Part shown: positions 9,936-28,909 of the stretch, in pieces
Layout: each line of letters begins with the position of its first letter
How positions within the stretch are numbered: the first letter of the stretch is position 1
Assembly: GCA_032358255.1 (NCBI GenBank)
Contig: JAULBX010002224.1
Span: 310,001 to 374,000 of the forward strand
DNA from: Heterotrichella gracilis
Lineage: Eukaryota; Sar; Xanthophyceae; Tribonematales; Xanthonemataceae
DNA length: 64,000 bases
Reading direction: 5' to 3'
The notes under the pieces: generated by a model
The model's input: only the letters and a program-made list of their open reading frames with translations
What the model was told of the DNA's origin: nothing
The model's database searches: none
Translations under genes and position numbers: made by a program

Positions 9936-11208
9936 ATGGCAACCGCAATGGCCTCCGCCCTTGTGCGCCCCACCGCACAGGTGACTTGCACCAGCAGCAA
10001 GGCCTCTGCTCGTGCGTTTGCTGCAGCACCTCGCGTTGCCTTCCGCGCACCCTTCAAGGGCGCAGCCCTGAAGGTAGCATCAGTGTCTGCAGCTCGCAAG
10101 CAGATCAGCACCGTCTGCAAGGCCAGCGGGGTGAGTATATGGCACTGTCTTGGTTTCATTGCCCGCACATGGTCCTGGCTGTGGCAAGGTCGATTCTGCG
10201 CTGTATCTGAGCTTTCTGTGTTTGATGCTAGGCACCCCTGGTCGGCAACGTGGCTCCCGACTTTGCAGCAACTGCTGTGTTCGACCAGGAGTTCCTGGAC
10301 ATCACTCTGTCCCAATACAGGGTGAGGACGATGGCAATGAGTGCTTTCTGTACCGCACAAAAACTGTCAAAAGTGTAACCTCTCTGCTTCCACATTGTAG
10401 GGCAAGTACGTGGTGCTCTTCTTCTACCCACTGGACTTCACCTTCGTGTGCCCAACCGAGATCACTGCCTTCTCTGACCGCCACGGAGACTTCGCAGCCA
10501 TCAATGCTGAGGTGGGTGATGGCTCTCACTCACCCACCCACCTGCCCAGCACCGCACTGCTTATATTTTGACTTCTGGTCGCTAACCCCTCTCCGTATTG
10601 CAGATCCTTGGTGTGTCTGTGGACTCCCAGTTTTCCCATCTTGCCTGGATCCAGACAGGTGCGAAAAGAGTGTGTATCAGCTCCATTAGCTATGTGGCAA
10701 TGGCCTAGTGCTTACCTATCCCTGTCAACTTGCAGACCGCAAGGAGGGTGGTGTTGGCGACCTGAAGTACCCCCTGGTGTCTGACCTGAAGAGGGAGATC
10801 TCCTCAGCATACGATGTGCTGTCAGCTGATGGTGTGGCCCTGCGTGGCCTGTTCATCATTGACAAGGAGGTGGGTGCTGGTCCCCAGCTGTCCTATGCAC
10901 TGGTGGAGTACACCCTCCTCCATACCTCTTTCTCTTCATCCAGGGTGCGAAACTATTCTAGACTAGTCGTTTCCCATCCATGGCAACTTATTGGTTGGTT
11001 TGGTGTTGCGCTGCAGGGCATCATCCAGCACGCCACCATCAACAACCTGGCGTTTGGCCGCAACGTGGAGGAGACCCTGCGCATCTTGCAAGCCATCCAG
11101 TACGTGCAGGAGAACCCCGACGAGGTATGCCCAGCTGGCTGGAAGCCCGGTGAGAAGACCATGAAGCCCGACCCCACCGGCTCCAAGGAGTACTTTGCTG
11201 CCATCTAA
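9936..11208 (+). CDS. 2-Cys peroxiredoxin, chloroplast type
   Basis: This enzyme reduces H2O2 and alkyl hydroperoxides in the plastid stroma, using thioredoxin or NTRC as reductant. Exons: 9936-10130, 10232-10321, 10401-10511, 10604-10658, 10736-10869, 11017-11208, all in phase, giving 258 residues. The first ~64 residues are rich in Ala, Ser, Arg and Lys and lack acidic residues, as expected of a chloroplast transit peptide; the first intron falls at its end. The mature part has the peroxidatic cysteine in FTFVCPTE (about Cys112) and the resolving cysteine in EVCPAGW (about Cys233), which defines the typical 2-Cys class. The tail extends beyond the resolving cysteine and ends EYFAAI, similar to the YF-containing tail linked to sensitivity to over-oxidation. 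It corresponds to plant BAS1 / algal PRX1-type proteins. Very sure. Confidence 0.95.
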
Positions 11209-12439
11209 GCTGCCACCAGCAGCCAGCAGTGGTCAAGGAGTGTAGTGAGAGGGTGAGAGAGGCCGGTTCTGTATCTGCCACATGTGGCATCGCTATACAG
11301 TGGCCCTTGGGGACCATTCAATGTGTTTTTGCTGGAATGACGGGCCTTGACGGGTTGTTGTGGAACTATTGACATGCACCTGGCGTAGCTGCTATGGCAG
11401 GATTGCTGGACACAGTGTCAGCGCTCCTCCATGTTGCTGGCATTGCGTTTGTACCTTGTTCTGGAGGCAGGAGCAATACCATCCTCTGCATCTGAAGTGG
11501 GTAAACATGCTCAGTGCATATGTGTCACGCTGGGTGACACCGTCACAAGATTCTTTTTTTTGCAACACGCTTGATATGCTTGCAAGTCATAGAGTCACAT
11601 AGTTGGGCCTGCATTGGTGGACAAAGCCGGCTGTAACACAACAGCAAGAGTAATCCCTGCATATGGACCATCAGGTTCTACAATACATCATTAAGCCCCG
11701 GTACGCCGCGGCGCGCACCAAGCCTTGCAATTTAGCGCAGTGCTGTTATGCGGCAGAAAGTTTCTACAGAAACATAAGATCACTTTCCCCCTGGCCTAGG
11801 CTGCCGTGCGCAGCGTCTCCAAGAGCTTTGTGCCACGCTGGCAGCCCTGACTTGAAATAATTATTTAAATTGATTTATCACCAAATATTGCAATTTGTTT
11901 TATGGTTGGAATATAACCATAGCACTAGAAAGACAGCAGCAAGGGAAAGTTCAAGCGATAATAGGGAGCTCCTGGCCCGTAATAGTACCCTCAAGTTGGT
12001 CACCTAAAAAGAAAGAAAACAAGGGAAATTCAGTGCGCAAAAGGAGGTTCAGGGTCCACACCCATTGCATCTGCGTTTGCCAGAAGTTATCGTTTTTCCT
12101 GGTCTAGATCTATTTCTCCTCTCGTAGTGTTCTCAATATAATACACGCTACACCCTCAAAGCTGCAAACTCTTTCAATGCAGTGCACTGCTCACAATGAT
12201 GCCAAGCTGTAATGCCCTACCAAGGCCATGGTGCGTTAGAAAAACCCTATATCCTGAATAGAAAATACTTATATCTTGTGTTACCCTTTCCCAAGTGATC
12301 CCAACATAGAATTACAAACAATGGAGATCCCAGTTATTGTAAGTCCCATAGATGATAGTACACACGCGGAAGCCAAACCCACAAGTGTCAAATGACCAGC
12401 ACCCAACGCTGTGGTGGCTGTTTATAGCAGCTGGCCGGA
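11209..12439. other. tail-to-tail intergenic region, no gene seen
   Basis: The stretch lies between the 3' ends of the peroxiredoxin gene and the large minus-strand gene. Its right half is AT-richer. No convincing exon, RNA gene or repeat was found. Confidence 0.55.
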
Positions 12440-15400
12440 CTACTGCGAATCAGCTGGCGGCCGTTGCGCACAGATTATGCTGAATAGACTCTCCTGCTCC
12501 TCGGAGTCTGGGATGATTTCATCCTCTTCTGTCCCCGGCCGTTGGATCCCGACATTGCTGGGGATTGGGTCGCATGCGCCGCCTCCACCACCACGTGGCA
12601 CGGCGTGTGCTGCATGGGCGCCACCATGTGCGATGCCATGGATCCCCATGCCATTGGCGCCTGGAGCCCCCGCTTCTGGTGCATGCATGGAGGTCGATGG
12701 CCTGGCACCACCTGCTACCCCACTGCTGGTGCCGGGCTGCTGCCCCCTCACGCCTGCCGCAGAATAGGCACCAGGCGCAGAAGCAGGCGCCACGTGGCGG
12801 GTTCCGATGGTAGCCACACCCCCTTGACCTGCAGGCGCGCTGATTGATGCCTCAAGCATGGTCATGGTGGGCTGGGCGGCGAATCGTTGCCTGCTGGCGT
12901 TTGCTGGCAGCGCAGTGGCGGCTGGCCTGTGATTGGCCTCTGCAGGTGGACGGGGTGCGGCTGATGTGGGGGCTGAGGGTGGCGGAGCAACCATTCCCTG
13001 TGCGGCATGGCACCCAAGTCAGTGTTGAAAATGTAGCATGCAAGTAAGTGCTGGGTCTGCACTGGAGGAGTACCACTCAAAAGGCACATGCGCTGTAGTC
13101 TTTGGTGTTGGCCATGTCTGCTTACATGGGCAGTTGGCACATGCATGGTCTGACAGCTGCCTCCAGTGCGCCAGGCGTGCAGCTGGATCCTTCGCCGTGA
13201 CTTTGAGAGTGGAGAGGGCCAATGCAGCAGCAAGCAGGGGTTGCTGCGCGTACGTGTACGTGCACATGCATGTGGCCCATTGGCACTGCTCCCAGTGCAC
13301 ATGAAAGCAAGTCACATGCCAACGGCATGATTCCCATTTGTACAAGCGCTACACCCCCTACCTGGTCCTGGTTGACAGCCAGCGTCGTCGACTTCGTGCA
13401 TGCGAGCAGGTGGAAGTCATCATCGCTGCCCTTCCCAATGGCCTTCCCCTCAACCCACTGGCTGTACCTCAGGTGGGTCAGGGTGACCTCCAGCCGCGCA
13501 TGCATTTTCCCGGGGTTGGCAATCACCTCCCCCTTGTCGGGAATGGGCAGCTCCTCAATCTGAAGCTCTAAAGCCCTGGGGGCGCTGTTAAAAGCTATCC
13601 TAACTGGCATCGTCCCAGCAACAAGCCCAAACAGCCAGAGAACCTTGGAGTCCTTGAGGGTCCTCCAGGCTTTGGCGGTGACCACCACTGTACCAGACAG
13701 CGTGTCCTGATTTTTGGCAGCCTTGATCATGTTCATGTCCAGGTGCTGGGGGGGACCCTCACGCGTGTCCTTCCTGCTGACTTTCTTGGCAACCTCCCCT
13801 GCTGCCGGTGGTTGCCGGACCGGAACCGGTGCCTGGTTTTGGTTGATTGCTCGACCTCCCTTGCCTGCAGCGGCCGCCTTGAGCGCCCCCTGGCCTTCAC
13901 CACTGGTGGGCACCGCTGGCATGCCAGACCTGACACGCACAGCCCCCTGCCCGTTACCAGGAATTTGCACTCCTCCCGTTGACCCTTGACCCCTGCCGTG
14001 GGGCGGCAGACCGGGTGGCACCTCCACCCCCGTTGCCTTCCGCTGCACATTCCCCCTTGTCATCCCAGTGGTGTTGGCACTTGGAGCTGGGGGTGGGACA
14101 GGGGCTTGGTTGCCTGCTGCAAAGTAGGGTGCAGGGTCAGGTACCGCGAGGTAGGTCATTGGGTGTGCAGCCTGGGGAATAGGGTTTCATGGAGGGTTTG
14201 GTCACAGGAGGATGCCAGCTGTCAGCCCTGCATGGCCCCATTCATAGTGAATGGTTGGGAGCGATCCCCAGCCAACCGGCAGAAGCGGTCATTGCAGCGC
14301 GCTGATCGGCCGATTGGTCAAGCTGACCGATGCATTGCCAATCGCAGTAATGCGTACTGGGTACTGCGTGCGCACTGCTACCAGGCAATGCAGGTGCATA
14401 TGTCCTGCATGCCCAATAGAGCAGGTGCACACATGCCTGTGAGCCCCCAGAAGGGGTCCTATGCACACCCAAAGGTGTCACCATGCACACCAGTCACCCT
14501 GTCCTAACAGCACACAGACCACCACAGGGATTCGCAGCCAATCATGCTCATCGTCACTGAATTTGCTGACAGGAGCAGGGTTACAAACAACCGATTACAG
14601 CAGCCTAACCTGATCTACTACCACTACCAGCGCCGCCCACAGCAGCGCTGCAATCGGCTCACCTGGATTTGCTGCTGCGCTGAAAGCTCCGCTGGGTCCA
14701 GCTCGAACGTCCTGATTGGCTGCCGGGGCCCGCAAGGGGTCGAGCTTGTAGGGGTCAAACAGGGGACTGGCGGCGATGACAGCCGCGTACCCCTCCCGCA
14801 TGTCCTTGACTCCCCCCTTGTCCAGCAGGCGGGAGAGGAAGGGGAGCGTGCAGCGGACCCACTTCACACCCTACAATAGGGTAATTGGGAAGTGCTCAAC
14901 AAAAAAGAAGGGAAATGATATTACTCGACTACAATCAATGGCATCGTTTCTCGGCTGGCACGTGGAAGAGTAAAATGCACTGTGACTGGAGTGTAAAGGG
15001 TTTGAGCACTTTGGAAACACAACACACTCAGGATGGTCAGCATAGAGCGTATGCTCTATCTCAACTTGAGGTCGAGACCCAGGGGCCCTGCCACAGGTGG
15101 TTATGGTGTTAGCCCCTGCGGTGTGGCCTCATAGAGGTTACACAGAGGCAGTCACATGACACTCTCGAGTGCACAGGTGCCGCCCATTTGGCATCCCATA
15201 CTACAAAGCCATCACGCAAATGCCAGTATGATGTTCCAGTTGGAGGCCTTTGCCTCAGAGAGGCATACTACCCACCGCTTCCCCCGACTGGGCCAGCCGT
15301 GTTAGGAGCTTCAGCCCCTCCTGTGCGGTGGTGCGCTTGAAGTCTGCCCCCCGCCACATGCCCCCATCGCCCTGCTTAGGGGGCACGGGCCGCCTGTGGT

Positions 15401-18400
15401 ACACGGCCTCCACTGGTGGTGAGGATGGCACGCCCAGCAGGCCCTGGAGCTGGTTCTTGGCCATGGCAACATCCTGGGGCAGGGGGCATGCGTGGTGTTA
15501 GCAGCCATATAAAACAATGCTGTTCCCCATCGAGAAATATTATAGAAATACCATTTTAAATATGCATGCAACTGAGATATGCAACACCATCAGCGCCAGA
15601 TGGATGCAAATGCAGCAAGTGCGAGCATTTAGGCATCTTTTCTGGCCCCACAGGGCGTGCCATAAGCAGTGCATGTGGCGCCACGCATGCCTCCTGGTGC
15701 TGATGGACCTATGTGGAGAGCAGGTGCAGAGGGGCACATTTTACGCACCGACTGCATGAGTGGCAGGAGGTTACTGTCTTCCACGGCTGTGAACCCAATG
15801 TTGACAGCCCCACTGGGGTGCCTGGGGCCTTGGTCGCTAGTGAACAGGCCATTGATGCACGCCAGCACATCCTGCGTGGAGAAGGCAGGTCACATGAGCT
15901 AGACACATGGAAAATGTAACTTTACATTTTGCATAAATTTAGTTTGTCTTATATAATCATTAAAATCTGCATTTGATTATCTACGTTTTTAATTCGGATG
16001 ATGCAAAAGAGACACAAAGTTGTAGCTTTTGAACTATTGCTGAATGCGTCAACCTACAGACAAACATCTCCATGCGTGTCTAGGCTATTCATGTTCTTGC
16101 AATACCACCATTAACTCCCCTCCTTCCCGCATGTTTCTCCACCCACCTGCATCGCAACCTTCACACAGACCTTCATGACCGCAGCCACCAGATCCTCCCC
16201 GATGGATTTCAGCACCCCATTGGCCACACTGCCTATGGGGTGCACAGCCAACACCGCTGGCATGCTGAGGCCCCTCAGCTTGGGTCCGTGGGTTATCGTA
16301 ATTGCGTCAGGTGGTGGGATTGCCATGTTGCAGGTGTCCAGGAGGGCCATGAGCAGCTGGTATGCAGCGCATCGCACTGAGGCGGGGGTGGGGGTGGTAC
16401 TGCACAGGCAAACAGGCCATGGCGCACTATTAGCAGGATCGTACACCCTAACCCATAAGCCCTAAAGAGATTATTGCGGAGCAGGATCAGGGACCTAATT
16501 CCTGTGCAGGTCATTGCGCACTACTAGCAGGAACGGAAACCCGAAACCCTAACCAGGGAGGTTCAGCACCATTTAGAAAAGTCACCACCACTCACCTGTC
16601 CAACCCACTGAAGCAGTGGGGCATGAGGAAAGCCACATGCACCAGCACCACCCAATGCCCCTCAGGAGCCAACACGCAGGCCGGCATGCAGGGCTGCTGC
16701 AGCAGGTGCCCGATGAACCGCAGCGCAACCACCGCCGCACGCTCCAGAGGCTGCTGCTGGGCGCTGGAGGCCAGCTCTGGCGGCAGCGTCTAGGACAGCA
16801 GTGAAAAAACCATGATAATGAGTAAAAGAACAAATGAAGAAATATGCAGTCTCTCATATGCCCAGGACAACAACAATCATGAAAATTTGGGAGGAGGGAG
16901 GAGGAAAGAAGGAAAAACAAAAAAAGCTGACTGTGCAGGGAAAACAAATTACTGAAACTTGCAGCCTGGCCATGAACAGGTATGTTGGCAAAGAAAGAGG
17001 AAAAGAAAGGCATTGGCATCCTATACATTTTTTCCCCCATATTTCTCTACGCATGACTGTTAAATTACCTGCGTGCCCTTGTACACGTATCGCTTCACGT
17101 ACACCCCCAGCAGGGCATGGATGAGCAGCGCGCGGTCTTCGGGGCTCACGCGGGCAGCTGTCAGGCCATGTGCCAGCATCTTGAGGGTGGTTGTGTCTGC
17201 CACTGAAGGCCGCTCGTTGCCTGGCAAGGGAGGGGTGCAAGGATCAAGGGGAGGAACGAGAGCATGTGCCCATGTAGGGGATGTCGACGGATCATCCGAT
17301 GGATGCTGGAGTTGTCGTGGTGCTCTTTTATGCTTTGCATACATATACCACCCTCCATTATCTGCCTTTGATTGTATCCACAACTGCCACCGCCTGCACT
17401 CACCAACAACTGTCACCCCCACATGGCCCACCGCAGACCGACAACTCCCCCCCCCCTCCTCCCACCCACCCCCACACACCTGCCAGCGTCTCAAACCAGG
17501 GCGCCACCAGGTGCACCACCACCTCCACCACCTCCTTCTCCACCATCCGCAGGTGCAGCCGTTGGTGCACCAGCAGCTCCACCAGCTCAGGCACCGCGCC
17601 AAGCACCGTCGCCTCCTCCACATACTTGCGGGCGGTCTCCTCCTGCCTCAGCTGCACCATGGTGTCGAATTCAGCCGCGTCTTGGTCGGCATCTTGGTCC
17701 GGGTCGTCCTGGAGGGTACCTGTGGCTGCTGCGTCCTCCAGGCGCTGGCAGCGCTGCAGGTAGGCGCAGGTGAGGCCCACCCAGGAGAAGAGCTCCTTGA
17801 AGAGCGGGGCCAGGTCGGCGGAGCCGGCCCGCAGGGGGGCTGCAAGGTGGGAGTAAAAAACCCTAAGTTTAAACCCTAAATATAAGTATTGATTGAATTT
17901 AAGTACTAGTCTACAATTAGGCGCATTTGTGGGGAGGAGGAGTCGGCGAAGAGAAGGGCACAGGGTTGTGGATTTGCTGCAATTTGCTGCAATTTGCTCC
18001 AACACCCCGCGGTGACACATGGCAGCGGTTGAGCACACTTGCAACGCTTTCAACAGCACCGCATCCTACATGCAGCTTATCAAACAACATCGCACAACCA
18101 ACAAACAAGAATGGAATGCCTCAATGAATAACCAGTCTGCAGCCAAGGTGCACTGCAGGTTGCCACCTCACCATTGCTCTCTGCCATGAGCAGCATCTCA
18201 ACCACCACACGCATCGTCCCCGCCTCCCATTGCCGCAGCTGGTTGGCTGGGAAGCTGTACTCCGCATGGCGGCAGGGCAGGGCCTAGGAACATGCACCAA
18301 AGTAAGCATCAACACCAAAGGGTACGCAGCTGTGCTAGATGATGCACAAGTACGAATTTTAGTGTGAGCCAATGTGAACAGAACAATTGTGCTTGGTTAC

Positions 18401-21400
18401 ATTAGACATTCTATTTAGTTTAGGAATCAACATGCAAGCCAAGGTCCCAGCCACGCGATGGCAAGTGCCATGACTGCAAAGTGTCTGCAGCTGGTGCAGA
18501 GTGCATAATGGCACATGCAGTGGGCCACAGCAAATTGCTTCATGAGCAACAGCAATGAACATTAGCAAAAATGCCTGCTTTGAATGTGTACACGTAATCA
18601 GTCATACTGCTAGCAAAGTGGTTCAATTTGGTCACCTGCTGCAGCTCTGGAAGCAGCTCCATCACATCGCCATGGAAGGCTGAGGCATTCCTGATGAGTG
18701 CTGCACGCAGCCTGCCACTCACATCATTGGCTGCGTCCTGCAAAGCCAGTATTCAGAGTCAGGTCCCAGCTAATGTCTTTCTGCAACACAGCTCATGTGG
18801 TTAACGGCCACTGGCCATGCTGCATTTCAACCCATCCTTTTTACGCCACTGCAAAGGAAACGTGACCCACTCCAGACCCAGTTTCAATTTAACCGTTGCC
18901 CAAACCGCTCACAGCCACCAGAAAAACGCTAAGAAACGCAGACAAACGACTGGACGGTTTGAGGTTTTCGCAACATACACTATGCGCCGATTATGCAATT
19001 TGCTTCTCGAATTGTATTTCGTATTATCTGTTGCCGCTTTCAAGGCAATTGTTCCCAATTCAATATTCCCTAGTTGGAAGCATTAAACCCTAAACCCTGG
19101 GTGTTGTGCTCACCAACCCGTTGAGCACCAGGTCCTCCCCCTCCATCACAGGCCCATCAGGCAGCAGCGTGGACAGGTGGATGTCCAAAAAGTAGGGCCC
19201 AATGTCCAGCATGCACATGAGCCACATCTTGCGCAGGAAGGTAGGGCAGTCACGGGCCAGGCCTGGGTAGCTCTGCAAGGGACAGGGGATGGCCTGGGTC
19301 AGCGACTGAGGACTATCTTTGGCACTCAACTTGTGCTGGCTGCTGATTGGGGAACTTGAATGTCGATAGGCAGTTCAGGAACGATCTCTGGTCATGCTGA
19401 TGAATGGGCGTTCAGACAAACCCACTAGCGTGCCATCAGCAACATGCGCATGGGATTCACACAGACAACGTGTCAACAACAATCATTATGGTATTGATAC
19501 GGCAGGATCGATGTGTTGGCCTTCATGTCTAGCATGCTCAAGATGGGTGTGTGATCACCTGCAGGGCATAGATGACCAATCGCAGGGCCAGCCTTCGCAC
19601 AGCTGTGTGTGCCTGGCGGTAGAAATCCGTTGCCGAGTGGGGGCCCAATAGGAAGCCCTGCACGTGCAGCCATCCTGCCACTGGGTGGGCAGCACCAGGC
19701 GGCTTGCGCTGCACCCAGTTGCCCCACCCGTGCTTGTGCGCTAGCAGCAGCAGGCCGTACAGCTTTCCCAGAGGCTCCTGCACACACATTTTATTAGGCA
19801 TGGCAATGGCATACTATGCTGAAGAAGGGTTCCAGCACACTCATTTATCAGGCATAGCAATGGCATATTATGCTGAAACACATTCCTCAAATACACACAC
19901 GCAAACTGCCTCATTTGAGGTGCCTGATTTGACGGTATCAAATGGCAGAAAATGTTGACCACAATTGCTTGCTCCTCAGTATTTGTGACAAGCAATTGGA
20001 TGGGGCCAGTGCTGTTGAGCTATCCCTACCTTGGCAGCTGCAGTCATCATCTGCCAGTCGTTGGTCTTCATGGCTAGGTTGTCTGCTTCAGTCCTGTCTG
20101 CAGGAGCCTTGTTCTGCAGCGCCATGGCAATGCAGCACTCCAACCGATACACCAGGGGCTGAGTGGCATCAGCCAGTTTGTGGACATCCTTGATCAAGGT
20201 GCTCCGCTGTGCATCAGTCAACTGCAGCAATATTTTCAAATCAGACAATTCAGAAGCGCCATCGCAAATGTGTTTATCAGCAGTGCAGCAGAGGTCGCAC
20301 ATATGAAAGTGCGCACACAGGTATGCAGCAAGAAAAGAGCTCTCCTCCAGGGTATCTTACCTCAGCAGCATTGCCACCAAGCTTCTGGCATACAGTTTGC
20401 ACGACAGTTGACACCAGATTGAGAGCAGACTGCCGGATCTGGAGTGGCACAGGCTGAGTAGGCTCCAATAAACTCAGGATATTATCCGGCAGAGAGCCAT
20501 GCGACTTGAAGAATTTGTCTGGGGGAAAGCTGCCCAGTGCCTCGCGTGCAAGGCTAGCCAGAAACTCCAGAGTCACTTTCAGCAGTATCGCATCGCTCTG
20601 CAACAAAGGAGTCCGTTAATCCTCCAAGAACATTTCTTGCCATATTTGGGTATTACTTCCAATAGATTGCAATGCGTCAGCTCTATCTTACAGCATTATG
20701 CATACATATGGCTAGCCAACAGATTTACCTGCACAAACATCTCACAGTACTGGGACAGCTCAGAAGCCTCTTCCTCATTTGTGGGTGGGCCTTTGTTGAC
20801 ATATCCCAGCTGCAGTCCCTGCACACAGTTGGAGATTTAGTGCATAAGGACAGGCAATTTAATAAACAAAGCCCGTCATAAAGTCATCTCCCTTTTTGTA
20901 CATTATCCTTCCAGCTACAATGTACCTGTTCCAAGCCACTGGGTCCAGCATTGGCCAGCTGCACCGCTTGTCTGTACTCCTTGGTAATTGGGCTGATCCA
21001 GCCCAACACACCCTCAATGACAGGCTTGGTTGGGATCTGCCTCTGCATCAGGGCCTGCTTGACGCTGTTGACTGTGTTCAGCAGCTTCATTCGGGTGATC
21101 ACATCGCTCCCCATGAACTCCAGAAATGGCTCCTGCATGTGCAGACGTGATTTGCGTGACCATATCAACTTGCGATGGAAGTATGGCTGAGCCATGTGTG
21201 TGCCAAGGGCATCTGAAAAGTACTCAAGTTTTATGATGCAGTAGAACAGGAGCGCCATATGAATCTGACCTTGAAGGAGACAAGAGGAACTGCTGGTATG
21301 CAGACAGCAGCATGCATACGCACACTTGGGAGCCATTTGCAACTTGCACAGAGCCAAGGGAAGGATATCACATGGGGCTGTTTACGACAATGTGATGCCA

Positions 21401-23940
21401 TACCTTCCCGAACAGCCTTTGCACAAGCTCATCCACATAGTCCTGTTCCTCCAGGTGCCTGGCGAGGCACACCAGGATCTCCAGCACGTTCCCCACATAC
21501 TGCTTCTTCAGTTCCAAGGCCATGCCCTGAATCTGGGTGACCTGGTAGGGCGCCTCAACATCATCACTGGTGGCACCTGCAGAAATGATTGACTTGTTAT
21601 TTGTCGGAAGTTGAAACCCATCCAATGGACATTGCATATATTATCAAGCACATGAACTTGATCTGGTAACCGCATATTTTAAGTTTTGATTGGAAATTGC
21701 ACGGATTGCAAGGCAACTCAATACATGTGCAACACTCACATTGCAGATCGTGGATGCAAACAAATTCGGGGAAGAGCTTGCTCTTGTAATCCCTCCATTT
21801 TGACTTCATGAAGTTCCTCAGCCTTTCCTGCATCTTCTCTCTGTACTGTGGCAACCCAGGCACCACATGACTGAACAGGGGAATGTCCTGCACCATCCTC
21901 TGCACCTCATGGCACATGTCAGCTGCCACGCGATACAGGCTGGTACTGCTTCCCTCCCCATTGTCCTGCAGGAATTTGGACATAGCCGTCCATCGGAGTG
22001 TGATACTTTGGTTGCTATGTCCTTTGATGCAACAGTTTTGTCGGTGCACTGTTTGAACACAATGCAATGCTGCTGTCATGCAGGCCGATGTGCAGGCAAA
22101 TATACTGTGCGATTTCACCTCTTCGGTAGCCGGTTGAGGGTGGCTTGTAGGGGCAGGCTCTTTCTCTAGGTCAGGAGTGGAACTGCCGGGTGAGTTGGTG
22201 ACTTCAACCGGCTCTGACCCAATATCAATCTCTGCAGCAACATATCATGTCAATAAATCCTGTCAATACTTCTTGTGCATTGCAGTTAAAGAACCAATGG
22301 ACTGGACACCATTCCAATCGCATCTGTTGAGTGCACATGATACAATTGGTTCCCTGATACGTATCTTCTTCCTATGCATGCCTCAATGCTTCAGCATATC
22401 CTGATTCACTGCTGCCTCCAGGTTACAGATTGATCATGTGATGTTCTAGCCTGTGTATGGTGTGCACAAACAAGCTTACCAATGATCTCAGGCCGCTGCA
22501 TGTCATCTTCAAGATGCCCCTCCTTCAGAAGAGATTTCCCAACTGGTGCATCGAATCCATCTCCCTCCTCCTCCTGAGTCTGCACAGCTTCAGCCGAACC
22601 CAGCGCCACCTCCTCATCACTGTCCGACACAACTCCCCTTGCATCCCCACCACCGATGGCTGGCTCAGGAGAATGCTGCACATGAGGCACAACAGGCTGC
22701 CTGGGCGGTTGGTAGTCGCCAGCGGCAGCATATCCAGCATATTCAGGGGCATATGTATTCCCCATATGCCCTGCCATGGGCCCCACTGTAGGATGCGCCA
22801 TGCCTCGCTTGTGTGCTGGGCCCTGATGGGGCTGCAGGTGAGCAGATATGCGTTTCCCACCCACAACCCGCATGCGAGGCCCCTCTGCCGCTCCACCATC
22901 TGCACACACAAATACAGCCTAATTAAAGCAATCAACAACAGTAGTCCACTTGCCCATGGAGAAAGTGCGGCAAGTTAAGCAGCAAGCTGGTCTGCAGCAC
23001 ACCAAAAGGAGAAACAAAAGTGGCAGAGAAGCTTTCATACACCAACATTGGAGAAATGGGTTGCGTGAGCGCAGTCCAAGTACCCCACTCAGATTATGTC
23101 AATTGCTTACCTCCGCCATAGAGCCCTGTGTGGCCCCCCAGATCCGCGTCATCCTCCGGGAAGCCCTGCGAGGGTTCCGCCATTTGGAGCCCAGCATCCC
23201 CTGACACACGTCGATACGCACCAGCAGCGCTACCATACATGGACCCTGAGGCAAACCCCGCGTAGGATGTCACTACAGGGTGTGTCCTGCTGGCTGCTGG
23301 AGCACCATGCAACCCCGTCCCAAACCCTCCATAGGGTGCTGACGTTGGCAGCAGCCCATGCGGGGCAGTCATGCCACCAGGGCCAGCACCAGACCCTGCA
23401 TAGGGTCTTGGTGCTGAGGTGGGGCGAGGCGGTAGGCTCCCCTGATGCCCAGCTGCTGCTGGTGCTGGTCCAGATCCAAAGTTGGACAGGTGTGGTGCTG
23501 CAGCGGCAGCAGACTGGGTGAGTAAGGTCCACCCCCCAATGACATCAATGCAGGTGACATGCCCATATGTGTAAATTGCTCGTGCATGGGCAATTTCTTT
23601 ATCGGTAGCTGGACTGGCTACCCAAGCATGGCTACTAGCTCATCACCTCCTGAGTGCTAATCACAACTGTTTGCTACATAACAGGTGTTGAAATGCATCC
23701 CCAACATGATTATGCCTTCACAGGTAACCTCAAAACTGGGCATGCCAACTGTTTGTATGAGCCACATTGTCCCCTGCACAGCCCTACCTCCTGGGGCTGC
23801 ATCATGGGCAGCGGACGAGGGGGCGGCCATGTGGGAGCTTGCACCCAGCCCTGTCCCACCCTGCAAGTGTGTTGGCCCATGCATGGCTGTGCCGTCAGAT
23901 TGCGGGCGTCGACCGAACAAGTCTGCGGCAGTTCTGTTTC
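12440..23940 (-). CDS. very large unrecognised protein, probable alpha-solenoid with disordered ends
   Basis: I do not recognise the family. Twenty-three exons were placed on AG/GT motifs and every junction keeps phase: 23940-23788, 23497-23111, 22899-22480, 22231-22119, 21965-21740, 21576-21404, 21132-20926, 20818-20729, 20597-20361, 20221-20030, 19777-19559, 19272-19114, 18737-18636, 18283-18172, 17839-17480, 17220-17069, 16789-16596, 16399-16147, 15871-15749, 15473-15276, 14870-14663, 14116-13362, 12997-12440. They encode about 1,860 residues. The first ~350 are Gly/Pro/Ser-rich with an acidic SDSDEE patch. The next ~1,000 are helical and Leu/Ala-rich without transmembrane runs, like HEAT or armadillo solenoids. 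A Pro/Gly-rich linker then precedes a compact segment (near GTVVVTAKAWRTLKDSKVLW), and the tail is disordered and ends with EEDEIIPDSEEQE. The first exon starts in phase 1, so it needs either an upstream exon (see the CDCA7-like gene) or an internal ATG such as the one before HGPTHLQGG. Exon structure fairly sure; function unknown. Confidence 0.7.
19781..19877. repeat. two-copy tandem repeat, 55-bp period, in an intron
   Basis: Positions 19781-19823 and 19836-19877 are two copies of a ~43-bp unit, both containing GCAATGGCATA and ATGCTGAA, with a few substitutions. The pair lies in the intron between exons 20221-20030 and 19777-19559 of the large minus-strand gene. Confidence 0.8.
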
Positions 23941-24115
23941 CTGCAACGGAACGTATTATAATAAATGATAATATATCATATTATTAAAAATTATTTTTAT
24001 TGCAAGAAGCATATATGAGCAAAGGAGCAGGCATCTGGCTTTCGTGCCGGAATGCTTGTAAGTGTTATAATATTGCAGCATGCATGAGTAAGGTGATCTG
24101 TTACTTGCATTCAGC

Positions 24116-26354
24116 TTATACAGCCAAATAGCAGTCAGTCTTGCACATGCGGCGCCAAGCAGCTCGGTCCTTGCGCATGTAGCAAAAGCAGCATGCAAGA
24201 GCTGTACGCCACGTACTCAGGCGCTGCATGGTCCCCACATCCTCATTTGCTGCATCCAGCTGTAGCAGGTCCAGGGGGCCACTGTCCAACCCAAGGTCGC
24301 CACCTGTCAGGCCCTGGAGCAGCACCCCCATTTCCTTGTCCAGCTCAGCCACCTGCTCCATTAGCTTGTTGCGCCTGCGGCCGTGCCTGGGTTGGGGAGC
24401 AGGCGTAATATAGTCAGGAGCTTGTGATCGGTTTGGATGGGGCGTGATCGGCGACGGGGATGGGATAGACTGGAGGGTGTTGGAGCTGGCAGTTTATTAT
24501 CAAGAAAGCAAGAATTGTGGGGTGAGGACGTGGCGGCTGCATTGTAAACAGTTGGATCGCAGATAAAATTAGAATGTTGCATCAAAGACGCTGTGATTGC
24601 TGTTCAGACGAAAAACATTACAGCACCAGCATTGAAAACTGCCAAAGAACTAGCCATACATCATTCACAGATTATCCTGTATCTGAAAGGGATAAATGTA
24701 TGAGAATTAAAGCTACATTTTTTCGCGCCCAGTGCACTGTGCTTGCACTCACGCGCTGGTCAGCTCCTCCTTTTCCTCCACCTGCCCGCCAGGCCTGTGG
24801 TGCACGTGCCGCCGTACAGCGCGCTCGCCCATGGGCACACCATCATGCAGCCGCAGGAACTCGGGGTTTGCAGCCGGGTCCAGGCGGATCCCTGCTCTGC
24901 CCCGGCACACCACGGTCTCGATCATGTAGTGCGCCACCTGTTGGTTGAGGAGAAGGCGGTGTTGTCCAATGGGTGGCATGGGCAATACGACGTTGTCATA
25001 CAGGGGGTGAATGGGCATGCGCCGTGCTTTGCATCAGTCTGATGTGAGTAGGGATCACCAGTATGTGGGCCTTTGCTGATTGCTGCAACGTGCTTGTGCA
25101 GTTGCGAAGCTATGAAATTGGCGTGCATGCAATGCACGAATGCTCAAAGAATGTGGGGGTGCTTCCTGCATGCCATCATGGTACGTGCTGACGATGGCAA
25201 TTTCTTACTTTCACCATGGCACACACATACCACTGTATAGAGCACGGCACACACGGCATGCGTGTAATGCACTATTCCACTTTGTTTGTCATGCCATGGC
25301 GCCTCATGCAAACGCAGCACTATGATCAGCTGAAGCTTCCCTGCTGGGGCGCAGCACACTCGAGCAATGCATACTCCATCCTCCTGTATTGCATTGCCAC
25401 GGATCCCAGACCATGCCGTGACATGCCATGCATTGCCAGCCACACTCACCGATTTGTACCGCCGGTGCTTGCTCTCATGGTGCAGGCTCTTTGTGGGCTC
25501 CAGCCCACGCAAGCCGCGGCAGCAGCGGGGTGCAGAGCAGTTGCAGATGTCCAGGCAGCCAGGGCACCGCCAGTTTGGGTTGCTGAGGGCATCGTCGATG
25601 TTCTGCCCCATGCGCACCCACAGGCACTTGCCGCACCATACCCCTCGCCCGGGCCCTCCAGGGTTGTCAGCCGCCGACCAGTAGCTGCTGTCAAAGGTGC
25701 CGCAGATGCATTCCGTTTTCTTGCAGACAAGCTTTTGCCTGCAGTGTGCGCCAGCAGGTGCATGGGCGTTGACGCAACACAGTGACAGGCAAGCAGTGAC
25801 TGCACAAGTAGTTTTAATGGGTCAAGGCTATGATTTAGGTGAGGCAAGTACACTACCTGCAAAAGTGACAGGTCTGACATGTGGGGCAGTTTGGACCGTG
25901 CTCATTTTTGCACAGCAGCGATTCCCTCTGGCCCACAAAGGTCCTGTGAGGCGCTGCTTCATAGTGCCAGATGCGATACAGGTGCTTGTCTGTAAAGTAC
26001 TCCCTGCAGAACAGACAGAGGTGTGAGCGTACAGGGTCTGTGCCTTTCAATTAGCTCAACAGCTGCAGCAGACAACGCTTACGATCTGCCAGTTTTGGAC
26101 TCTGTGTCTAAGACCTCTTGCCACACTGGACCGATGTCTTGGGTTCTCAGCACTGGCTTGTCTATGACTTCCGGCCTGGGTGCAGCCCCAAGGGCAGACC
26201 CCATTGGTCTCCCTGCACCACAGCTCTTGTCAACGGTGCCCACATAAAAGCTGGAAGACACGTCTAGGGCAGTTCTGCCTTCACCTGCCATGAAGGCACG
26301 GCCCCCAGTGGAGTCACGTTCCGCGGGAATATGGAAGGGGGCTTCTCTGTTCAT
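24116..26354 (-). CDS. CDCA7-type protein with a 4CXXC-R1 zinc finger
   Basis: Family members bind DNA through a cysteine-rich C-terminal finger. In animals and plants they work with HELLS/DDM1 remodelers in heterochromatin and DNA methylation maintenance, so a nuclear chromatin role is expected here. Exons: 26354-26083, 26003-25857, 25738-25450, 24937-24753, 24374-24116, all in phase (383 residues if it ends at the stop at 24116). The finger runs from NCPTCQTCHFCRQK through CICGTFD, WCGKCLW and WRCPGCLDICNCS, about residues 120-205, with the paired CxxC spacing of Pfam zf-4CXXC_R1. The N-terminal ~90 residues are low-complexity. The acceptor before 25738 was chosen because it restores the family RQK motif and the frame. 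A GTACGT donor inside the last exon (near 24217) would join this gene in phase to the next large gene. Domain call sure; 3' end uncertain. Confidence 0.85.
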
Positions 26355-27390: not shown

Positions 27391-28909
27391 CTAGTTGAGG
27401 AAGGGAAGGGAGGTGCCGTTGGTGGCGAAGGTTACGTGGTAGGGATCTGCCAAGTGGTCGAACAGGTTGTCAATTGGGCCCTTGCCGGTGGCGGCGTATT
27501 GGAAAGCAAAGCCAACAGTGGCGAGCATGGCCAGGCGCCCGTTCTTGATCTCCTTGGTCTTGTACTCCTTGTAGCTGCTGCTGTTGGCAAAGCCGAATGG
27601 GTCGAAGATGCCACCTGGGTAGCCGTTCTCCTTGCCCTTGAAGCCATCGGTGATGCCGAAGAAGGAGCCATCACCCTGGGAGCCAGGGTTCTTGAAGTCC
27701 TCCCACCTCTTCACCTCAGCCCACCCGCACAGGGCAAACTGTGCAAAGAGCAGGGCAGCTGCAAAGGAAGAGTTGCAAGCTGTCAGTGTCAGGGTTGGTG
27801 CTCCAGTTGGGTTCTTATGTATGACATTGTGGGGTATCCTGTGTGTAACAAGTAAACAGTTCAACCCACACGCATGCCAACAAGCAAAGAAAGCAGGACA
27901 CTTACGGATAGACACCTCGTTGTTGTCTATGTACACCTTGCCAGCGTCGTACCACTGGGGCACGCTCAGGGCACCAGCCTTGGTGAGCAGCTGCAAGCAG
28001 GTTGGCACCAGTGTCAGCAACAGCGCAATGTCTTTGAAAGAAAGCCAGGCAGGTAGGCTGGCAGGCATTGATGCCCCAAGAGAATGCGAGTGAAACAAAG
28101 ATGTAGGTGTATACTTGTGCTGAGCCCAGTGCAAGCCAACAACTGTTCAGGCAGTAGTAAACATCGGACACCAAGGGCACTGCCATTTCACCCACTTACC
28201 CCTGGGAGCAGGATGCCAGCAACGGCGGTCATGGCTGTGCGTCCGTGCACAAGCTCGGCCTGCACAAACCTGCACAACAGTCATAGGTTGGTGCCCTGAA
28301 GTGGATAAGTCTACAACGCGCACTGGGATTGCAAACCGAGTTGGGTCGCTGGGTTCAAGTCACTCACCACTTGAGCAGCTCGGGGTCGCTGCCGAGGCCA
28401 AGGGGATCAAAGCCATAGTCTCCCGCGAGGCTGAACGGCAAGAAAGTGGGTCAATGCGTGTAAAGGTGGGGCATGGAGGGTGGTACAGCGACGGCTCGGG
28501 GTTTACTCACCTGCCGTCGAGGTAGCTTGGGGCGGGGTTGCCGGGGTACCACACTGGGCGATCCGTTGCCATGACGGTGGTGCTCACCTTCTGCACGTGG
28601 TAAAGGGCACAAGTTAGCGCAGATACGGTGACGTCGAGGGTTTACCCATGTATCCAAAACCCATGTGAATGCATCACAAGATACGCGCTGCAAATGCACA
28701 GCTGGGGACGGCTGCCTGTTGGGCTAACACGACGCATGGCTGCACATAGCTGACTAGTGGGTGCACTGGCGTCCATAGGGCTGGCTACCGCTGTCAATTA
28801 CCTTGGCAGCACGCACAACGGGTGCGCGCACGGCCTTGCCATTGAAGGCAGACCTCTGGACGGTCTTTGAGGACAGCAGTGCTGAGGAGGAGGCAAGTGC
28901 GGACGCCAT
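27391..28909 (-). CDS. LHCI chlorophyll a/b-binding protein, Lhca2-like
   Basis: This is a thylakoid antenna protein that binds chlorophylls a and b and passes energy to photosystem I. Exons: 28909-28802, 28590-28511, 28430-28368, 28269-28200, 27990-27906, 27758-27391, all in phase, 257 residues. A short transit peptide (about 40 residues, Ser/Ala/Val/Arg-rich, no acidic residues) precedes [16 protein letters not shown], typical of the LHCI mature N-terminus. Helix B has ELVHGRTAM with the E-x-x-H-x-R chlorophyll and salt-bridge residues, though the usual RWAM is RTAM here. Helix A has [11 protein letters not shown]. The end, [16 protein letters not shown], together with [17 protein letters not shown] after helix B, most resembles land-plant Lhca2/Lhca6. 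The family call is certain; the exact paralogue is not. It starts 452 bp from the divergent LHCA1-like gene. Confidence 0.93.

Follow-up and report, generated by a model that had tools for sequence, protein, structure and literature searches.

A CDCA7-type zinc finger and a giant helical open frame lie side by side on the minus strand of the window, the whole stretch of 64,000 nucleotides analysed here (G000:C24:310001-374000), and we hold it an evenly balanced question whether a single gene encodes the finger, a linker, a helical part of ∼1,100 residues and a C-terminal tail. A fusion of the finger to a solenoid is plausible because the stop codon that appears to separate them is the relic of a dispersed repeat, probably within an intron. 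The decisive weak link is the intron 24752-24387, which lies one intron upstream of the place flagged by an earlier note on this DNA; that note took it for granted, and the membership of E4 in the zinc-finger gene depends on it. Of the earlier observation the outline stands, but not the arguments from donor and phase.

The zinc finger and the gene model

The exon model was built by reading, and the phases of E0-E19 are consistent, giving one open frame from ATG 26354. If there is a single gene, it extends on the minus strand from ∼26354 to 12440 and comprises roughly 2,200-2,300 codons, summed by hand. Its features, and those of the regions that bear on it, are as follows.

26083..26354, minus strand: E0, initial coding exon of the zf-4CXXC_R1 gene; start ATG 26354 inferred from context, with A at -3
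25857..26003, minus strand: E1, N-terminal part of the zinc-finger region (exon model and Pfam search)
25450..25738, minus strand: E2, bulk of the zf-4CXXC_R1 domain (PF10497 match)
24753..24937, minus strand: E3, end of the zinc-finger domain (VAHYM) and linker (exon model)
24387..24752, minus strand: E3-E4 intron, or the gap between two genes; holds TGTAA at 24622
24239..24386, minus strand: E4, coding exon; preferred 3' end 24239, earlier note's end 24217, alternative start 24374
23861..24238, minus strand: preferred E4-E5 intron; contains the apparent stop and two repeat relics
24100..24174, minus strand: dispersed LINE-like 3'-end relic, holding the apparent stop 24118-24116
24044..24061, minus strand: core of a second dispersed repeat, TTACAAGCATTCCGGCAC, found at 19 places with ≤1 mismatch (window included)
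23788..23860, minus strand: E5, preferred form; the earlier note's form begins at 23940; in-frame ATG at 23884
23111..23497, minus strand: E6, low-complexity linker rich in Gly/Ala/Pro (exon model)
22480..22899, minus strand: E7, low-complexity linker with an acidic stretch (exon model)
22119..22231, minus strand: E8, linker; open frame shared with E9
17961..21965, minus strand: E9-E19, N-terminal half of the helical region; E19 3' end uncertain
14663..17839, minus strand: E20-E26, C-terminal half of the helical region; exon ends near E19-E20 uncertain
13362..14116, minus strand: E27, linker and possibly a beta-rich segment (13760-13362), by eye
12440..12997, minus strand: E28, final exon, with a stop at 12440 and TGTAA at 12316; exon start set by eye

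The 4CXXC-R1 finger claimed from the sequence is present. PF10497 matches the spliced N-terminal protein at E=4.1e-22 (78.6 bits against a curated cut-off of 22.7), and a search of the genome (68.5 Mb, 903 contigs) gives E=9.1e-17 at E2. Three places in the genome carry a zf-4CXXC_R1 domain, the window included. One of the others, L001 (G000:C476), is close to canonical CDCA7, and its YKSVAHYL fits by eye the continuity YKS/VAHY across E2 and E3; L003 (G000:C368) is more divergent and by eye is without the conserved glycine. L001 looks a better CDCA7 orthologue than the window gene.

Aligning the window finger with human CDCA7 and L001 shows that R274, Q275, G294, R304 and S330 of CDCA7, numbered by our own counting, are all kept. 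As PMC11343034 describes them, R274 contacts the 5mC methyl group, Q275 is next to the unmethylated CpG, R304 and S330 contact the DNA backbone, and G294 is important for zinc coordination. PMC10538959 defines class I of zf-4CXXC_R1 through its signature cysteines together with three ICF residues; it reports all three classes, along with other variants, from green plants, Chlorophyta included. The three ICF-associated residues (R, G and R) are aligned in the window finger as in class I; its cysteines, set in the same three-sequence alignment against the eleven signature cysteines of class I and their spacing, include extra ones, and 13 alignment columns are inserted between the third and the fifth.

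Among the known systems, the window protein shares the domain and these five residues with CDCA7 (class I; PDB 8yv8, 8tlk, 8tle). It differs in a longer loop ahead of RGVWC and, if fused, in a giant helical C-terminus that CDCA7 is without; moreover, the more canonical CDCA7-like gene lies elsewhere in the same genome. The plant DDR1-3 proteins (class II, with DDT and WHIM1) likewise set a finger before a partner-binding part, as PMC10538959 presents them, but the window finger retains the glycine that class II is there described as lacking, and neither DDT nor WHIM1 is reported for the window protein at E≤5, under filters that remove most matches weaker than ∼0.1, PF10497 being the sole match in the 712-aa part and the 1,133-aa part having none. 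WHIM1 does occur elsewhere in the genome, at two places. The class III proteins IBM1 and JMJ24, which carry JmjC, resemble the window protein, on the same source's description, in being long multi-domain proteins bearing a finger (PMC10538959), but a Pfam search reported no JmjC for the window protein or for pieces of its tail.

The possible junction between E3 and E4

Joining of E3 to E4 received a probability of 0.811 in the base setting and of 0.881, 0.966 and 0.750 in three others, and ranged from 0.471 to 0.957 across nine prior settings. For E2-E7 as one gene the values were 0.492, 0.051, 0.751 and 0.211 in a first run, 0.179-0.914 in the prior-setting run, and 0.643, 0.244, 0.564 and 0.739 in a four-setting run. 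The low values of the first run came with a start-codon bonus of 2. We give the start-bonus settings less weight because at -3 the rival start, ATG 24361, carries C, in contrast to the A of ATG 26354 and of all three tubulin starts that were found.

Controls for joining were of several kinds. A neighbouring pair taken as separate, E1 and the frame 27391-28146 (minus), which we take to be a light-harvesting protein (LHC), was joined at 0.003. Of 96 artificial trials (32 separate pairs, built from 8 gene ends and 4 starts and each set at three gap lengths), 10 exceeded 0.5, seven exceeded 0.75 and none exceeded 0.99. Solenoid anchors two exons apart were joined at 1.000, except E6-E8 at 0.981, and so were neighbouring anchors from E18 onward, except E26-E27 at 0.996; there the path used another acceptor than the one modelled, and that between E27 and E28 (1.000) included an extra small exon. 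These positive controls are partly circular, since E0-E2 and E7-E18 of the same gene were among the training exons of the coding model. E3-E6, and the splice sites from E2-E3 to E5-E6, were kept out of that training.

The strongest alternative is that there are two genes, divided upstream of E4. A short zf-4CXXC_R1 gene of ∼298 codons would end at the TGA 24752-24750, with TGTAA at 24622 as its poly(A) signal, and the giant gene would start at ATG 24361 and splice on in phase from E4. We regard this as a substantial possibility that falls somewhat short of an even chance. Left unspliced, E3 runs immediately into that in-frame TGA, and the TGTAA follows 128 bases on; the TGA, however, sits within a perfect GTGAGT donor. 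The splice sites concerned are weak when set against 26 reference introns derived from three beta-tubulin, one alpha-tubulin and two HSP70 genes: the E3 donor, CGC/GTGAGT, scores 2.3 bits, under all 26 external donors, and the E4 acceptor scores 5.0, toward the low end of the external set. An unconstrained first run of a gene finder, one whose own exon calls are poor and which was used for scores only, split the genes at exactly this TGA, and across settings the probability of a split at E3-E4 reached 0.53, with E2-E7 fused at just 0.05 and 0.21 under the start-codon bonus of 2. Against this, all four settings fused E3 to E4 (0.750-0.966), and the best path through E2-E7, with splits permitted, was a fused one via 24753-24374. 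The C at -3 of ATG 24361 also counts against a start there.

The remaining evidence concerns the spacing. Two frames in the window, that of the putative LHC and one ending at 11208 (plus) that is presumably peroxiredoxin-like, suggest a green alga. PMC1868727 gives TGTAA as the common poly(A) signal of chlorophytes. We tried 10 gene ends, of which eight could be checked (one HSP70 locus was too short and one anchor was not found). TGTAA occurs ≤740 bases past the stop in seven of the eight genes, and the first one lies 123-737 bases past it in six; the assumed end of the present gene is among both the seven and the six. In the LHC gene TGTAA comes at +1; L001 is free of it over 729 bases. Given that random positions lie at median distances of 872 and 1068 bases from a TGTAA, the signal is just moderately informative. 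From the TGA to ATG 24361 is only ∼390 bases, which argues against two genes when TGTAA alone lies 123-737 bases past the stop in six of eight; it is this short gap, weighed against the TGTAA at 24622, that leaves us at one half for the fusion. Between 24622 and 22427 the minus strand has no TGTAA. We infer the joining at 24753-24386, and the earlier proposal of finger and solenoid in one protein fares accordingly: the link from E4 into the giant frame is upheld, that from the finger to E4 stands at 0.47-0.97, and the whole is about even.

The apparent stop at 24116 and the splice out of E4

Both the TAA stop ending at 24116 and the AT-rich character of the gap from there to 23941, as previously described, are found in the sequence. 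The stop lies in a repeat relic. A query of 23930-24230 against the genome returned 413 first-look candidates, and among the 40 that were scored, window included, the other 39 match the window at 82-90%, mostly across 24174-24100. Twenty-nine aligned copies (L013-L041) are alike around the 3' end and far less alike further out, so that many copies share a 3' end, as in a dispersed repeat. In that shared end an open frame closes with ...QERAAWRRMCKTDC-stop, after which come ATGCATGTAA and then CTAA repeats; TGTAA is included. At the same place the window has RAAWRRMCKTDCYLAV, from which both the frame-end stop and the TGTAA common to the other copies are gone. Upstream open frames vary in length among the copies, as they do in 5'-truncated LINE copies, and we call the repeat LINE-like on account of how its ORF end and tail look; two C-terminal ORF pieces of longer copies, searched for a reverse transcriptase, had no Pfam match at E≤0.1. 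For the second repeat, the reversed TTACAAGCATTCCGGCAC control pattern was found at 0 places. Its copies (L042-L060) are often preceded by AT-rich sequence, and one of them (L045) falls in L003, the third place with zf-4CXXC_R1, where by eye it sits between exons.

The coding signal of E4 is positive in both its parts (+11.0 nats over 24386-24304 and +9.8 over 24303-24217) and the read-through tail beyond it resembles non-coding sequence, at -12.9 bits over the 33 codons of 24217-24117 and -12.2 nats over 24216-24117. The last ∼33 codons before the stop therefore look non-coding, and in the leading models repeat and stop are intronic. E4 and E6 belong to one gene with a probability of 1.000, 1.000, 0.999 and 0.996 in the four settings, and continuation from E4 exceeds a split by 5.4 to 8.8 nats in each. 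These data support the continuation of E4 (24386-24217) in phase into the giant frame.

This leaves little room for two genes divided at 24116, in which the zinc-finger gene would end at that stop and the giant gene begin at ATG 23884. The open frame does reach 24116, and ATG 23884 is in frame with G at -3. However, the last codons are repeat-derived and non-coding-like, TGTAA is absent for 1.7 kb, and the same 5.4 to 8.8 nats stand against a split; we consider this reading very improbable.

As to how E4 is joined to E5, the donor CTGA/GTACGT ending at 24217, the acceptor CCGTTGCAG/GA opening an exon at 23940 and the preservation of frame between them are all as the earlier note gave them. Its statement that this type of donor is used repeatedly in the window is not confirmed: GTACGT occurs in one of the 19 modelled introns of the gene, that is, in itself alone, and in none of the 26 introns of conserved genes, where G stands at -1 in 25 of 26. 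TGA/GTACGT, at -1.3 bits, falls below the lowest of the 26 reference donors (5.5), and 42% of the minus strand's GT sites score as well or better. The phase match, offered with a one-in-three chance of accident, is weaker evidence than that, because E4 has several donors and several acceptors enter the frame. In forward-backward calculations under three splice-site settings, the junction 24239-23860 received 0.970, 0.665 and 0.372, the rest going chiefly to donor 24217 with acceptors further downstream. This splice is in phase, reads DAANED/GGTGLGASS, removes both the repeat relic and the stop at 24116, and gives a model that is stop-free over 1,296 residues. Thus the in-phase continuation from E4 that had been proposed is sustained but its exact junction is not, the splice probably running from 24239 to 23860 instead of from 24217 to 23940. 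A single fused gene using 24217-23940 is the least probable reading of all, since the phase match and a good acceptor (1.6-3.7% of the strand's AG sites score as well) are set against a donor under all 26 external ones and probabilities of 0.008, 0.023 and 0.041.

On the preferred model, with one gene spliced from 24239 to 23860, the LINE-like 3'-end relic in the intron 24238-23861 would merely mimic a stop codon. A transposon relic that imitates the end of a gene in this way could mislead gene prediction.

The helical part and the meaning of a possible fusion

The helical part comprises 1,133 residues, the later exons having been set in frame by hand. It has no Pfam family at E≤5, in a search whose filters drop most matches above ∼0.1, and no PDB sequence match at E≤10, and its first 647 residues have no NCBIfam model at E≤1. 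A genome search with the first 545 residues found no paralogue: five places were scored, and the eight matches were its own exons. E20 was modelled as four helices with modest confidence (mean pLDDT 59.7), and such modelling supports a predicted helical fold for the large C-terminal part, which is probably a solenoid. An IBN_N match at 19743-20019 (E=0.11) was rejected, as it lies mostly within an intron of the gene model, and MMS22L, virilizer, symplekin, mediator and SPOC, candidates considered for the solenoid or the tail, had no Pfam or PDB sequence match.

The tail is less well defined. E27 and the tail pieces gave no family or PDB match; by eye the segment 13760-13362 (minus) of the giant frame looks beta-rich and SPOC-like, with a model (pLDDT 42.7) too poor to judge by. 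Two TGTAA, at 14599 and 14585 (minus), lie at or just past an in-frame stop at 14595, and the helical gene could end near there; in the model, however, E26 is joined to E27 at 0.996.

No relative carrying both finger and helical part was found in GTDB or viral contigs, collections not made for algae; GTDB contigs yielded no relative, and three scans of the viral contigs, two with solenoid pieces and one with the finger, yielded none besides L061, whose 27% identity to one solenoid piece may be chance. Our literature search found no description of a zf-4CXXC_R1 architecture fused to such a helical scaffold.

Cytosine-5 methylase matches occur on five contigs of the genome, and SRA matches above cut-off on two. 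With the kept CDCA7 residues, these domains make a role for the window finger at hemimethylated chromatin a reasonable proposal from sequence. Like CDCA7, the finger would recognise CpG sites that replication leaves hemimethylated, and the helical part may serve as a built-in scaffold that brings partners to such chromatin. Animal CDCA7 recruits a separate remodeller, HELLS. If the fusion is true, this alga ties a sensor of half-methylated, newly replicated chromatin to a scaffold of its own, which would be a pointer to partners in the methylation-maintenance pathway.
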